Shown here piece by piece: positions 53,136 to 60,259 of a DNA stretch of 60,259 nucleotides (position 1 is its first letter; every line of letters begins with the position of its first letter). The notes beneath the pieces were generated by a model, which saw only the letters and a program-made list of their open reading frames with translations, was not told where the DNA came from and made no database searches. Both the position numbers and the translations under genes were made by a program. Source of the DNA: Marinifilaceae bacterium (lineage in GTDB: Bacteria > Bacteroidota > Bacteroidia > Bacteroidales > Marinifilaceae); contig JAFGYE010000015.1 in NCBI GenBank assembly GCA_016936255.1, positions 1 through 60,259 of the forward strand, given 5' to 3'.

Positions 53136-56100
53136 CTAATTCTCCGCTACTTTCAGCTCCTCTATCATTTTATTATACTTACTGTAGGGTATAATTGACT
53201 TATCGATATAAACGGGTGTTTGAATTGATAGAATTTCAAATTTATCCTTATTTGCCTTGAGATAGTCAACAATGCTAGAATATTTGAAGTTTGGCAATCT
53301 TTTTTCGATTAAGGTGAGGTACGAATGTTTACCCTCTATTATAGAAATGGAGTCCTTTATTTTGTAAATCTCAATTTGATTATCGGGGTGATCACCGTCT
53401 ATTACATCCTTTACACTTTGTTGTCCATTAACTTTAACATATATAGTCTGATAATCGGAAACCTCAGCATGATTCTCTTTCATAATATTAAAATAGAAAG
53501 GTGTAAATCGTGATAAATATTCGTTATCCTTTCTCAAATCGTGCAATTCCAATAAATGATGAAATTCTCTTATTAATTTATCATCGGGGAATTTATCAAC
53601 GCATTCTTTCTCAAACTTATTTATATCAGTAAAAACTTTAAAGATTGCTGAACTAAACTTAAAAATATTATAATCAGATCCAACAACTTTTAAATATTCA
53701 AATAATCGACCTTCATTGCTATATAGATAATCACTAAAGCCAATATCAGCATCTGACACTCCCAATTCACTATCCAACACATCACTTATGCAAACAAGTG
53801 ATGAACCGTATTTAAAATCAACGTTCTTAATATATTCTTTTGTTTTTGAGATTAGAATTTCTCTTATTTCGGAATGACTACTTCCCCAATATGACATATC
53901 ATCCATACTTCCTCTTCTATTACCAGTAGAATCCACTTGGCTATATAAAGATAGAATTGTACCAATTTTGTACTCTATATCTATTCCTTTATTATCCCAT
54001 AAATTCTCTTTAAAGAATTTAGTAAACTTTTCCTTAGAATTATTAAATACAATTTTTAATACCTCATCATATTTAAAAATAAACCTTAACAAAACATGTA
54101 CTATTAAGTCCCTATCCTTTGATGAATCAACTTTATAACAAGTACAAATTGTATTCTTTATTTTTTCCTCAGAATCAAAAGTAATATCTAACTCAAGAAA
54201 CTTATTGCACAGTTTCCTCCTAATGTCACCTATGATTTCTCCTTCATTATTCTTCAATAAATCATCAATGTATTCTTCAAACTTATTCGTTCCTAATTTA
54301 GAATTAAATTCAACATTGGATATATCATCATTACGAAGAAGAATTTCAAAATAGATATGTGTTCTATCATAATTTTGTATTGAATACCGATTGTCAGGTT
54401 TATATACTCTACTTAAATTATATTTATCAGCACCTACTAATTCTTCGGCAGACTTTTGGTTAACTACTGATTTTTGAAGGCTCTCGCCATTCCTATTAAA
54501 ATTAAATAGCAGAACAAACAGACGTCTAAAAAGCAACTTTTTATTACCGTCGGTAAAACGGAGATTATTTATCATATCATCAATAGTAAAATTCTCAAAT
54601 AAAATATTCTTCTCCTTAAATTTTATTACTCTCACCTCAGCAATCCCTATTGTAGATCTATCGGTACTTCCCTCCATGAATATTTCAGAGAAATTATCAT
54701 ATAAATACCTGACTTGTTTAGGGAAGTGTCTATTCATTAAAGTAAAGTGCAGTAAATCAATAAAATCGACATCTTCGGTCAATAAACACAAATTCGTACA
54801 ATAAATATTAGTTAGGACCTTAACATCCCTATAGTTAAACACAAACTTATCCAATAGAGTCTTATTCAATGTTTCTACATTTATTACAGCTTTCAATTTT
54901 TCAGCATCGATCCCCGTTTCTTTACGCAGAACCATTTCAGAAAATGCACTAAAGAGCTCTACACTCCTGTGTGGTGGGACAAACATTTCGTACTGAAAAT
55001 ACTTATCCAAATACATTAAATCTTCGCCAATCGTTTTAGCGACGTAATCTTTATCGTAGGCAACAAGAAAAATGGTATTGGGGAAATTCGCTGTATTTCT
55101 AATAATTCTGAGCACCTCAAATATCTCGTCCTTCCCTAATCTGTCCACATCATCGATAATAACGATGGTCTTAATATCGATTTGTGTAAATATCTCTTTC
55201 AAGTCTTCGTAAGCCTGGCTGGCCGATTTGTTCTCGGCAAACCAATCAGCAGGTTTTAGTAAGCCTTGAATATCTTTTTTCCCATTAAGGCCAAGTTCGA
55301 TCAACTTGGCTGCATAGGCAAGCATGCTCTGATTCAAGTTACCATGGTATTTTTTTAATTTGAATGCTAATAGCGTAAATAAATCCGTACTGATCTGTTC
55401 AGGTTTATGGCTGTAGGCGGGTAGAAATTCAATTACTTCAAACCTTTGGGACTTCAATTTATCTTTAAATTCTTCTCGCAAATGGTTTACAAAACTAGAT
55501 TTGCCGTTTCCATAAGGTCCTATTATGCCAATACTAAAGGCCTTACCAAACTTTTGTTTCACCAATTTTGGGACTAAAACATCAGTTAACTTCTTATATT
55601 GTTCGCTTTCTTCATCACTAATCGCATTCTCTTCTTCGGAGTCTTTTAATTTCTGGCCTTCAATATCACTACGGGTCTTCTTTTCATCTGAATCTTTTAA
55701 TGGTACATCTTCTTCGAAAAAAGCATTATCATTTTGTGGAGCTTCTTTCTTAAAGTACGCTACACATCCCTTATATTTTTCGGATATGTATCCATAAATT
55801 TTAGCAACCCACAGGTATACCCTGTTATATGTCTTACTAAAAACAGATCTGAAAATCACGGATAAAGGATATAACAAACTAAGCCATAAAATATCAATCA
55901 ATTTGATATCATAAATAAAAGGTTGCCAATGCCATTTTACGATTTCATTACCAGCTTCTATCTTCAAAAATGACCAATCTTCTCCATATCTTGCAAAAAT
56001 AAATAGGGCCATTATAAAGCCGTATGCCAGCCATTGATTGAATGACATGATATAGGAATTTTTAATCCAGCTACATTGTTTCAAGATTAACAACACGGCT

Positions 56101-56258
56101 AAGCCAACAAATACAGCACTCACATAGTTATTCCAAACTATTTTATCAAAAATATATGTGACAGGATACTTGTAGATAAGATCAAAAATTAAAGAAGCTC
56201 CACCAAACAATAGGAATAATGGGAACAACAAAAGGGTTAATTTTCTAGGTCGTTTCAT
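53136..56258 (-). CDS. KAP-family membrane P-loop NTPase
   Basis: The 1040-residue protein has about four membrane spans at the N-terminus (7-28, 42-60, 74-90 and about 118-140), an acidic low-complexity linker (about 180-225), then a KAP P-loop domain. Walker A is GPYGNGKSS (247-255), Walker B is TIVIIDDVDRLGKDE (364-378), followed by FLVAYDKDYVAKTIGE. A long helical C-terminal region of about 550 residues has no recognised domain. KAP proteins include the phage-exclusion protein PifA and the neuronal scaffold Kidins220, and many bacterial members are suspected in defence. It is flanked by a hairpin-rich repeat region and has lower G+C than its neighbours, which suggests acquisition. Confidence 0.9.
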   Translation of the reverse strand: MKRPRKLTLLLFPLFLLFGGASLIFDLIYKYPVTYIFDKIVWNNYVSAVFVGLAVLLILKQCSWIKNSYIMSFNQWLAYGFIMALFIFARYGEDWSFLKIEAGNEIVKWHWQPFIYDIKLIDILWLSLLYPLSVIFRSVFSKTYNRVYLWVAKIYGYISEKYKGCVAYFKKEAPQNDNAFFEEDVPLKDSDEKKTRSDIEGQKLKDSEEENAISDEESEQYKKLTDVLVPKLVKQKFGKAFSIGIIGPYGNGKSSFVNHLREEFKDKLKSQRFEVIEFLPAYSHKPEQISTDLFTLLAFKLKKYHGNLNQSMLAYAAKLIELGLNGKKDIQGLLKPADWFAENKSASQAYEDLKEIFTQIDIKTIVIIDDVDRLGKDEIFEVLRIIRNTANFPNTIFLVAYDKDYVAKTIGEDLMYLDKYFQYEMFVPPHRSVELFSAFSEMVLRKETGIDAEKLKAVINVETLNKTLLDKFVFNYRDVKVLTNIYCTNLCLLTEDVDFIDLLHFTLMNRHFPKQVRYLYDNFSEIFMEGSTDRSTIGIAEVRVIKFKEKNILFENFTIDDMINNLRFTDGNKKLLFRRLFVLLFNFNRNGESLQKSVVNQKSAEELVGADKYNLSRVYKPDNRYSIQNYDRTHIYFEILLRNDDISNVEFNSKLGTNKFEEYIDDLLKNNEGEIIGDIRRKLCNKFLELDITFDSEEKIKNTICTCYKVDSSKDRDLIVHVLLRFIFKYDEVLKIVFNNSKEKFTKFFKENLWDNKGIDIEYKIGTILSLYSQVDSTGNRRGSMDDMSYWGSSHSEIREILISKTKEYIKNVDFKYGSSLVCISDVLDSELGVSDADIGFSDYLYSNEGRLFEYLKVVGSDYNIFKFSSAIFKVFTDINKFEKECVDKFPDDKLIREFHHLLELHDLRKDNEYLSRFTPFYFNIMKENHAEVSDYQTIYVKVNGQQSVKDVIDGDHPDNQIEIYKIKDSISIIEGKHSYLTLIEKRLPNFKYSSIVDYLKANKDKFEILSIQTPVYIDKSIIPYSKYNKMIEELKVAEN

Positions 56259-56346
56259 TTATACGAACTTTATAAGGTCAAAATGCGAAATGCAATGACT
56301 TAATGAAGTTCGAATTTATGAAAAATAAGAATAGCTACAAGAAAAA

Positions 56347-56444
56347 TGTAGATTATCAGGTTGATAATTACAGCTTACAAATCTGAAAAGAGCAGTAATT
56401 ACGAAACTCTGACAGGGATTATACGCTGTCAGGATATCGTAATT
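56347..56444. repeat. Two palindromic structures upstream of the KAP gene
   Basis: First, ATTATCA (56352-56358) pairs with TGATAAT (56362-56368) around GGT, extended by TGTA/TACA past one bulged base. Second, a nested hairpin: the outer stem AATTACGA (56397-56404) pairs with TCGTAATT (56437-56444), an internal 4/4 loop follows (AACT and GATA), and the inner stem CTGACAG (56409-56415) pairs with CTGTCAG (56426-56432). All stem pairs in the nested structure are exact. Confidence 0.7.
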
Positions 56445-56480
56445 GGACTGAACTGATCAACGAGTTTTTATTATTATTTC

Positions 56481-56727
56481 GGGTTATAAATCCTATTGCT
56501 CAGAACTCCTGATTGCAAATCAGGGGCAGCAGCGGTAATCTTTAGTCATACCCTGACATTTACAGCTTCTCTATAGTCAGAGCATGACAAGAAAAATATT
56601 TTAAGGCGATACGGCTGGCCCTGATTTGTTATCTGGATTTAATTAGTTGGCGATTTATAATCGCCCAAGCTGAAAATAGAGGATTGAAAATCCTCAACTC
56701 GAAACCTGCAGATTACAAATCTGCAGG
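56481..56727. repeat. Array of short palindromes sharing xGATT-N3-AATCx
   Basis: Six palindromes follow one plan: arms of 5-10 bp ending in GATT (or GTT), a 3-base loop, then AATC. They lie at 56481-56493 (GGGTT/AATCC), 56508-56524 (CCTGATT), 56620-56636 (CCTGATT, decayed partner), 56649-56665 (GGCGATT), 56679-56695 (GAGGATT) and 56705-56727 (CCTGCAGATT). Centres are 29, 112, 29, 30 and 29 bp apart; the large gap holds the REP-like element. Outer arm bases differ between units but stay complementary. Confidence 0.8.
56544..56603. repeat. REP-like hairpin element, copy 1
   Basis: GTCATACCCTGAC (56545-56557) and GTCAGAGCATGAC (56576-56588) form an inverted repeat that, as minus-strand RNA, pairs in all 13 positions with two G-U pairs. 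The loop is 18 bases. A conserved tail (CAAG, then ATATTTTAAG) follows. The same arms, loop length and tail recur at 60112-60170. Confidence 0.85.
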
Positions 56728-56801
56728 AGCGCGGAAAATTATAAGATGTTGTATTTGTGTGATTTTTCAAATTATTTCTTCTGCTCTATAGAATGTTTGC
56801 C

Positions 56802-57263
56802 TTACTTATTCTTGTATTTCTTTTGCAGTGCATTCAAAAAATATCTTAGGTACTGATCTAAAAATTCTCGATAGTGTTTATGATCTGGATTACGGAAAAA
56901 AGCACTCAACTCATGTTTGCTTATTTTTTTATCTATTAAGGCGAGCATATCTAAGATGTCATCTGATTTCAAGTCCAATGCAATTTTTAGTTTCCGAAGA
57001 ATCATATTATTGCTTAAAGGATCTTCTGGCTCTGGTAGTGGACCTTCTCTTTTTCCGCGTTTTTCAATGATTAATCCGTTGAGGAAAATAGCCAGTTCTT
57101 TATCTGTGATTTCTACTAATAATGGGTCATCATCTTTTTTAAACCAACCATCCAAATCCGCTTTACTGACATCGTAATTGGCCAATTTAAAAAGTTCAAT
57201 CATTTTGAGATCACTAAAGTCAAACACGTAACGAACACGTCTTAATATATCATTATTGGTCAT
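56802..57263 (-). CDS. DUF1456 (YehS) family protein
   Basis: A 153-residue protein made of two similar helical halves, each beginning with the family pattern: NNDILRRVRYVFDFSDLKMIELFKLANYDVSKADLDGWFKKDDD and NNMILRKLKIALDLKSDDILDMLALIDKKISKHELSAFFRNPDH. This duplicated layout is the DUF1456/YehS family, broadly conserved but without known function. The second half is preceded by an acidic-proline linker (GPLPEPEDP). The gene lies downstream of the GH3 gene on the same strand, separated by a terminator, so it is probably transcribed independently. Confidence 0.88.
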   Translation of the reverse strand: MTNNDILRRVRYVFDFSDLKMIELFKLANYDVSKADLDGWFKKDDDPLLVEITDKELAIFLNGLIIEKRGKREGPLPEPEDPLSNNMILRKLKIALDLKSDDILDMLALIDKKISKHELSAFFRNPDHKHYREFLDQYLRYFLNALQKKYKNK

Positions 57264-57417
57264 ATTGTCTTTTATTTAATTTTCACTTCATTCATAATTT
57301 TCATTTTCCTAATCTAACTCCCGTTACTTGTGAGGCAGTTGCGCTAATCAACTCTTATTGTATTCAGGTTCCCGAAACTACAAAACAATAAGTGCTTACC
57401 AAAAGAAACAAGAAGAA

Positions 57418-59921: not shown

Positions 59922-60259
59922 GTTTTATTAATTACAAATTATAGGGTTTAAGGTACAAATAATTATCATTATACACATTTAAAATCCGGCTTAAACAATC
60001 AACATAAAAGATTGATTTAAAAATCATTTGACACGAAAAAACTGATTTTAAACTTACCTATTATACCAAATCAACATCAAAATTGATCTTATAAAATAGT
60101 GCTTAGTATCAAGTCATACCCTGACAAGAACGGCTTGGATATAGTCAGAGCATGACAAGCTGATATTTTAAGCAGGATTTTGAAATTAAAACTGATTTTA
60201 AACTTGCCAATTACACCAAATTAACATCAAAATTGATCTTATAAAATAGTGCTTATAGA
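59922..60259. repeat. Upstream repeat region: two 68-bp direct repeats around a REP-like element
   Basis: Two copies of a 68-bp sequence (60038-60105 and 60188-60255) are about 94% identical (four differences) and offset by exactly 150 bp. Between them at 60112-60170 is the second REP-like element, with arms 60113-60125 and 60144-60156 identical to copy 1. The loop is again 18 bases but differs in sequence except for AC, GCTT and TATA. The window ends inside or just after the second direct repeat, so the array may continue. The GH3 promoter must lie within or beyond this region. Confidence 0.85.

Follow-up and report, generated by a model that had tools for sequence, protein, structure and literature searches.

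The short palindromes at 56481-56727 of the window, as we call the whole stretch of 60,259 nucleotides analysed here, are very probably one REP and one REPIN of a two-hairpin type that goes with the REP-associated tyrosine transposases, or RAYTs, of subclass 2.6 (group 5, Bacteroidetes). RAYT group 5 was reportedly defined in a paper of 2017. In each REP a linker joins a long hairpin to a short one, and the spacing of about 29-30 bp between neighbouring hairpins follows from this layout. A GCT tag occupies the same hairpin-foot position in all three REPs of the window, and the loops, read on the tagged strand, run in the expected direction in six cases out of six (TGT, TAT, TTC, TGT, TGC and TAT). 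By these tags and loop directions the palindromes resolve into one single REP and one inverted pair of REPs, that is, a REPIN (PMC6006769), which is likely to be the mobile unit:

56479-56531, minus strand: single REP, with a short hairpin at 56481-56493 (decayed), a linker and a long hairpin at about 56506-56526
56528-56530: tag of the single REP, AGC, which is GCT on the minus strand
56543-56591, no strand assigned: second dispersed repeat, a bulged hairpin between the two REP elements and not part of the REP
56613-56731, no strand assigned: REPIN, a long-short/short-long inverted pair with the tags facing outward
56613-56665, plus strand: left REP of the inverted pair, with the tag GCT at 56614-56616 and a short hairpin at 56649-56665
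56617-56639: long hairpin of the left REP, decayed, with its core at 56623-56633, followed by the linker and the short hairpin
56679-56731, minus strand: right REP of the inverted pair, with a short hairpin at 56679-56695, a linker and a 10-bp hairpin at 56705-56727
56728-56730: tag of the right REP, AGC, which is GCT on the minus strand

The first-pass annotation had described six palindromes sharing one GATT-N3-AATC layout. Six short hairpins are indeed present at 56481-56727, centred at 56487, 56516, 56628, 56657, 56687 and 56716, but the exact core is found in four of them (starting at 56511, 56652, 56682 and 56711), and the other two are decayed: 56481-56493 reads GGTT-ATA-AATC and is held by a G-T, and 56620-56636 reads GATT-TGT-TATC. 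Perfect stems with 3-nt loops measure 7 bp at 56508-56524, 56649-56665 and 56679-56695 and 10 bp at 56705-56727. These four stems of at least 7 bp compare with a mean of 0.025 and a maximum of 2 in 2000 dinucleotide shuffles of the region. In the whole window GATT-N3-AATC occurs 10 times against 2.99 expected, a count reached in 0 of 100 shuffles, and pairs of exact cores separated by 12-24 were found in the genome at 56481-56727 only. The spacings of 29, 29, 30 and 29 bp given earlier are correct by hairpin centres. They do not, however, make up a single regular array of about 29 bp: a 112-bp jump between centres separates two elements, and 29-31 bp separates the two hairpins of one REP, or the two inner hairpins where REPs form an inverted pair. 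Likewise, the REP-like hairpin held to interrupt the series (about 56543-56591) turned out to be a copy of a different repeat family.

All three REPs match R1, a covariance model built from 15 sequences. The single REP (E 6.9e-11) and the right REP (E 1.0e-14) are themselves members of that building set, and the left REP, which is outside it, was matched on the minus strand with E 3.6e-5. In the single REP the tag stands exactly 6 bp outside the GATT core, the same as in relatives. Folded alone this REP is unremarkable (z -1.0, 32 of 200 shuffles as low), and the REPIN, folded as DNA over 56612-56732, reaches -24.0 kcal/mol, a value that none of 200 shuffles matched (z -5.1). The long arm of the left REP has an A in the congeneric genome G007 where our genome (G000) and the same-species G059 have a T, and its long stem, read by eye, is better preserved in G006. 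No ORF of at least 60 aa lies within 56259-56801, and the likely mobile unit thus lacks the internal transposase gene of an IS200/IS605 insertion sequence.

The second repeat is about 46 bp long, an imperfect bulged hairpin of the form GTCAT..CTGAC..GTCAG..ATGAC, with 75 matches in the nine genomes of the genus, our own included, and another copy in the window at 60112-60159. It was rejected as a flank of the three subclass-1.2-like Y1 genes of our genome, since BLAST gave no hit in their loci (L019-L021). Near that other copy, a 25-bp perfect direct repeat (60081-60105 and 60231-60255) lies at the contig end and is perhaps the reason why the contig ends there.

The link to transposases comes from related genomes. 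Core pairs were found in 16 of 58 of them (17 of 59 with our own genome), some single pairs possibly being due to chance. In G023 a core pair comes immediately after the stop codon of a gene for a Y1-type transposase, and in G034 four cores lie within about 150 bp of such a gene, three to one side and a single one to the other. Scanning the species genomes with these two proteins gave at least 587 pattern matches, 535 of them confirmed among those listed, and flanks were counted at the best 80 of the at least 535 confirmed RAYT loci. At these 80 loci the density of exact cores is 7.06 per kb within 200 bp of the RAYT match, 1.70 at 201-400 bp and 0.54 at 401-600 bp, then 0.21 and 0.34 in the two bins beyond 600 bp, and 0.184, 0.17, 0.02 and 0.009 in four further kilobases beyond 1 kb. 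An exact core lies within 300 bp of the RAYT at 60 of the 80 loci and is absent there at 20. When these 20 were inspected by eye, 15 showed multiple palindromes built on different cores, for example GATT-N4-AATC or GGAC-N4-GTCC, and flanking palindromes were not clearly seen at L077, L102, L108, L111 and L115.

Among the RAYT loci fetched, the closest partner by element is that of Ancylomarina sp. DW003 (L119), where the RAYT is bracketed on either side by CAACTCGAAACCTG, the same stretch as in the right REP of the window. At L119 the core of the inner hairpin adjoining the shared linker is a different one, GGTC-GAA-GACC, and one of the three tags scored is TCT, not GCT. Within the genus, no GATT-type RAYT was found beside GATT-type REPs. 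The RAYTs of the loci L136, L137, L138 and L143 are flanked by another hairpin, CGAGCT-TGT-AGCTCG (loop TGC in L136), in which the same loop type is kept, with GCT nearby; no hairpin was seen in the flanks of the L132 RAYT. The suggestion that REP-type transposases be looked for beside such palindromes in relatives has thereby been borne out, as palindromes flank them (60 of the 80 loci, G023, G034, L119). Of the origins proposed at the outset, the end of a non-autonomous mobile element gained support, although no such transposase stands beside the array in the window.

The RAYT flanks also define the anatomy of the REP. Of 147 neighbouring core pairs near RAYTs, 43, 44 and 25 are spaced by 29, 30 and 31 bp, respectively (112 in total), and a pair usually consists of one long and one short hairpin. 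In 273 cores from 60 loci, pairing at the outer positions 1-6 is 0.94, 0.69, 0.65, 0.58, 0.60 and 0.59, and at positions 7 and 8 it is 0.22 and 0.23, the level of shuffled partners; the long stem therefore stops sharply at 10 bp. Directly 5' of the foot of this 10-bp stem there is a tag, G-[C/T]-T, with G in 94, C or T in 92 and the final T in 93 of 104 units, these being the units left from the 147 pairs when those with equal stems or with a long stem shorter than 9 bp were dropped. The commonest tags are GCT, GTT and GTC. Since they are not GT[AG]G, the element is not a canonical REP. The loop of the 10-bp hairpin is mostly T-G-Y. With the pairs oriented by stem length alone, the long-hairpin loop (88 of 104 scorable) has T first and no final A in 85 units and is reversed in three, and the short-hairpin loop runs in the expected direction in 81 units and is reversed in one, the unscored units having 4-nt or undecided loops. 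The hairpin thus has a direction that is tied to one strand.

Selection for structure, for which the first-pass annotation had argued and had proposed covariation as the check, is supported both by the cores near RAYTs and by an alignment of whole REPs. Summed over the six outer positions, pairing in the 273 cores amounts to 4.05, and shuffled partners reach at most 2.58. Cores more than 1 kb from RAYTs had been considered as a control for arm pairing and were rejected, as the 53 such cores pair about equally well (0.79, 0.60, 0.64, 0.62, 0.60 and 0.53), presumably because they too are dispersed REPs; shuffled partners are consequently the sole control. The alignment, A4, comprises 15 REP units from the window, G007, G002, G006, G004 and others, drawn from 18 candidate units with L026 (two odd orientations) and L035 left out. 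In it 92.1% of the pair cells are paired, and both-sided change is observed in nine of 17 pairs, in 26 cells against 9.7 when shuffled (0 of 500 as high), a count in which several rows are orthologous copies, so that the independent events are fewer. Sliding the partner by 1-3 columns abolishes the covariation. One of the five measures, further pair types, falls within the shuffle range (43 of 500). The claim that pairing is kept in the arms therefore holds far above shuffled partners when relatives are included, but two of the six hairpins in the window are decayed. The companion claim that decay would not keep such pairing was too strong, the elements being orphans here with those two hairpins already decayed. 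In G007 (L152/L007) the last long hairpin has identical arms and the loop TGT, against ACA in G000 and G059, which by its sequence looks like the inversion of a palindrome.

The protein of L119 has a Pfam Y1_Tnp match and scores 110.4 bits with the NCBIfam model REP_Tyr_transpos (cut-off 80) and 20.9 bits with the NCBIfam IS200 model, which is below the cut-off of 55. Its AlphaFold model (pLDDT 93.3) has as best PDB match in a fold search 4ER8 (E 4.5e-8, TM 0.62, 16% identity), the structure of the E. coli RAYT together with a REP hairpin. A sequence search of the PDB with this RAYT gave no match at E <= 0.001, and PADLOC reported none for it. All three motifs of subclass 2.6 are present in the L119 RAYT: NH[LIV]H, WQ and YIH[QN]NP. 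Across 100 RAYT loci, five of which have neither the HuH nor the Y motif and five of which have frames shorter than 100 aa, NH[LIV]H is found in 81, YIH[QN]NP in 58 and WQ followed by D, E or G in 78. The RAYTs beside these REPs, assigned by motifs, thus fit subclass 2.6 (group 5, Bacteroidetes).

The tag follows the protein. On a quick tree of 95 RAYTs, 41 rows of which were labelled by hand with GCT or GTT/GTC from the tags of the 104 units, the tag can be explained by a single change, where shuffles need 8.3 (0 of 500). No label was given to loci with GGT, TGT, GCC, ATT or further tags; L049 (two GTT, one GCT) was entered as GTY, L109 (two GCT, one GTT) and L075 (one GCT, one ACT) as GCT, and L119 and L123 were set to GCT by reading. 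For a count by residue, long palindromes with any core were oriented by their loops, which scored 72 of the 100 loci, 71 of them with a usable protein: 40 have GCT, 19 GTT/GTC and 12 other tags. At position 128 (L119 numbering), K is found in 37 of the 40 GCT loci, with E, I and L once each. The 19 GTT/GTC loci, 18 distinct ones since L042 and L122 are one contig, have E in 16, Q in two and V in one, and no K; the 12 other-tag loci have E in three, K in two and Q in seven. Position 128 is W+7 after the WQ motif, the same offset as that of E. coli H101, which PMC6006769 discusses among the guide-contacting residues; the same paper states that subclass 2.6 lacks conservation in this tag-contacting region. 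The association between position 128 and the tag represents very few independent changes among related sequences. K128 as the sole determinant of the tag was rejected, as GCT occurs with E in L067, with L in L091 and with I in L125. We tentatively propose, from sequence comparison and at somewhat less than even confidence, that group-5 RAYTs may use a bipartite single-strand signal, in which a GYT-tagged 10-bp hairpin with a TGY loop would be followed by a linker and a second hairpin, and the middle base of the tag would be read by position 128.

In our own genome, which is 99.99% complete, no RAYT of this group was found at E <= 1e-15, and the elements are therefore orphans. The three Y1_Tnp proteins that the genome does encode all carry Y..NQ..HH, a mark of subclass 1.2 (PMC6006769). 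In nine genomes of the genus there are 93 R1 matches at E < 1e-3, orthologous copies included, with 1-31 per genome: five in G000, four in the same-species G059, 12 in G007, 31 in G004 and one in G005. As 150 candidates were scored per genome, these counts are perhaps lower bounds, and of the five in G000 three are those of the window, two of them model members. Most of the 93 have no neighbour within 300 bp. The 22 pairs of REPs that are neighbours within 300 bp are minus-plus in 12 cases (four of them one orthologous site, that of the window REPIN), plus-minus in four, plus-plus in four and minus-minus in two. A 13-bp gap within the pair recurs at one orthologous site in G000, G059, G007 and G006, and G004 has it twice.

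Eight of the nine genus genomes, our own included, have a match to the DUF1456 gene that adjoins the array. Behind it the REPIN is present, whole or in part, in G000, G059, G007, G002 and G006, and it was not seen there in G005, G001 (where the gene match is partial) and G004. Set against the empty site of G005, the insert in G006 and G002 finishes on its right side no more than about 2 nt from the AGC tag; at the left end there are about 30 extra bases in G006, G002 differs further, and the alignment of G000 is scattered. To judge by these sequences, the filled and empty sites would agree with insertion or deletion of the unit and fall short of proving transposition. G007:C4:122872 was rejected as a second filled/empty site, being a compound of several repeats in G007 with no clean boundary. 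On the left-hand side of the REPIN site, different sequences are found in G000, G002, G005/G006 and G059/G007, a pattern that resembles a hotspot of variable genes, perhaps ones of defence. At 53136-56258 there is a 1040-aa KAP-family NTPase (Pfam 94.6 bits; PADLOC PifA model, E 1.4e-32), with only distant matches in two of the eight other genus genomes (33% and 26% identity).

That the hairpins sit 3' of the DUF1456 gene would also suit a role in RNA, with the hairpins at the 3' ends of DUF1456 transcripts as terminators or stabilisers and selection acting on RNA structure. On the minus strand the hairpin 56695-56679 is followed by TATTTTCAGC, a terminator-like arrangement found once against a mean of 0.1 in shuffles, and REPs elsewhere are reported to stabilise mRNA and to cause termination (PMC6006769); one hairpin could be a weak terminator of the DUF1456 transcript. 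We nevertheless regard RNA as an unlikely explanation of the array, since the RAYT neighbourhood, the tag, the inverted pairing and the link between tag and transposase are all unpredicted by it, G005 and, in part, G001 have the DUF1456 gene without the element, and no Rfam family reached the gathering score, tRNA being the only finding of an Rfam scan of the window.

Considerably less probable still is an array to which a host DNA-binding protein would bind, with its sites spaced by three turns of the helix. The 112 of 147 pairs exactly 29, 30 or 31 bp apart would suit it, but the spacing is set inside a unit and not along a series, the arms vary while they continue to pair, which a reader of double-stranded sequence would not favour, and the loop direction is tied to one strand. 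Short repeats and regular spacing also recall a CRISPR-like or an integron attC array, to which we give next to no weight: there are only six hairpins, their arms differ, a repeat search of 55800-57400 found no direct-repeat array at the site, and relatives have the unit beside RAYT genes.

For a REP and a REPIN of group-5 RAYTs, we infer that the element is, or was, mobile. When the strand becomes single, for instance as the lagging-strand template, the tagged strand would fold. By analogy with the cutting and rejoining of single-stranded tagged hairpins in work on E. coli, Stenotrophomonas and Marinomonas proteins, as presented in part of PMC8266576, the RAYT would read the tag and the loop, cut with its tyrosine and rejoin, and the inverted pair would in this way be copied or moved. 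The second hairpin may serve to hold the partner REP or another subunit of the protein. In the lineage of our genome the partner RAYT would have been lost, leaving copies that would now be immobile and decaying; the elements of the window are most likely relics without a RAYT.

The kind of element described here, REP-type mobile DNA, is already known. TnpA-Y1 subclass 2.6, or RAYT group 5, is flanked by 'atypical secondary structures', which were called weaker (Quentin et al. 2018, PMC6006769). With these the present elements share the occurrence in Bacteroidetes, the RAYT motifs, the lack of a GT[AG]G tag, the position flanking the gene and the presence elsewhere in the genome. Their tag, loop, stem length, two-hairpin layout and covariation are not described in the main text of that paper, whereas the long hairpin here typically has a perfect 10-bp stem and a GCT or GTT/GTC tag, and the window copy differs in that no RAYT adjoins it. 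Among the matches listed in the literature searches we recognised no description of the sequence of this REP in Bacteroidota, and among those listed for four core strings none was on REPs by title. The sequence definition and the tag-protein link appear new relative to the main text of PMC6006769 and the literature searched. They turn the 'atypical structures' beside Bacteroidota RAYTs into a searchable definition (tag, 10-bp stem, directional loop, second hairpin) and offer a specific hypothesis of protein-DNA recognition that is testable in vitro. The elements of the window also show that REPs exist in a lineage with no detected transposase of the group and that, among close relatives, one site occurs in both a filled and an empty state.

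REPINs were reportedly described by Bertels and Rainey in 2011 as inverted REP pairs. Like them, the unit in the window consists of two inverted REPs that form one symmetrical unit with outward tags, but here there are two hairpins per REP and so four per REPIN. E. coli is said to hold about six hundred REPs in the relevant part of PMC8266576, and copy number here is very low, with at least five matches at E < 1e-3 in our own genome. With the E. coli TnpA-REP/REP complex (4ER8) the system shares the fold, as the best PDB match, and a tag 5' of the hairpin foot. The E. coli REP itself has GTAG and a bulged stem, where the REPs described here have GYT, a perfect stem and a second hairpin.
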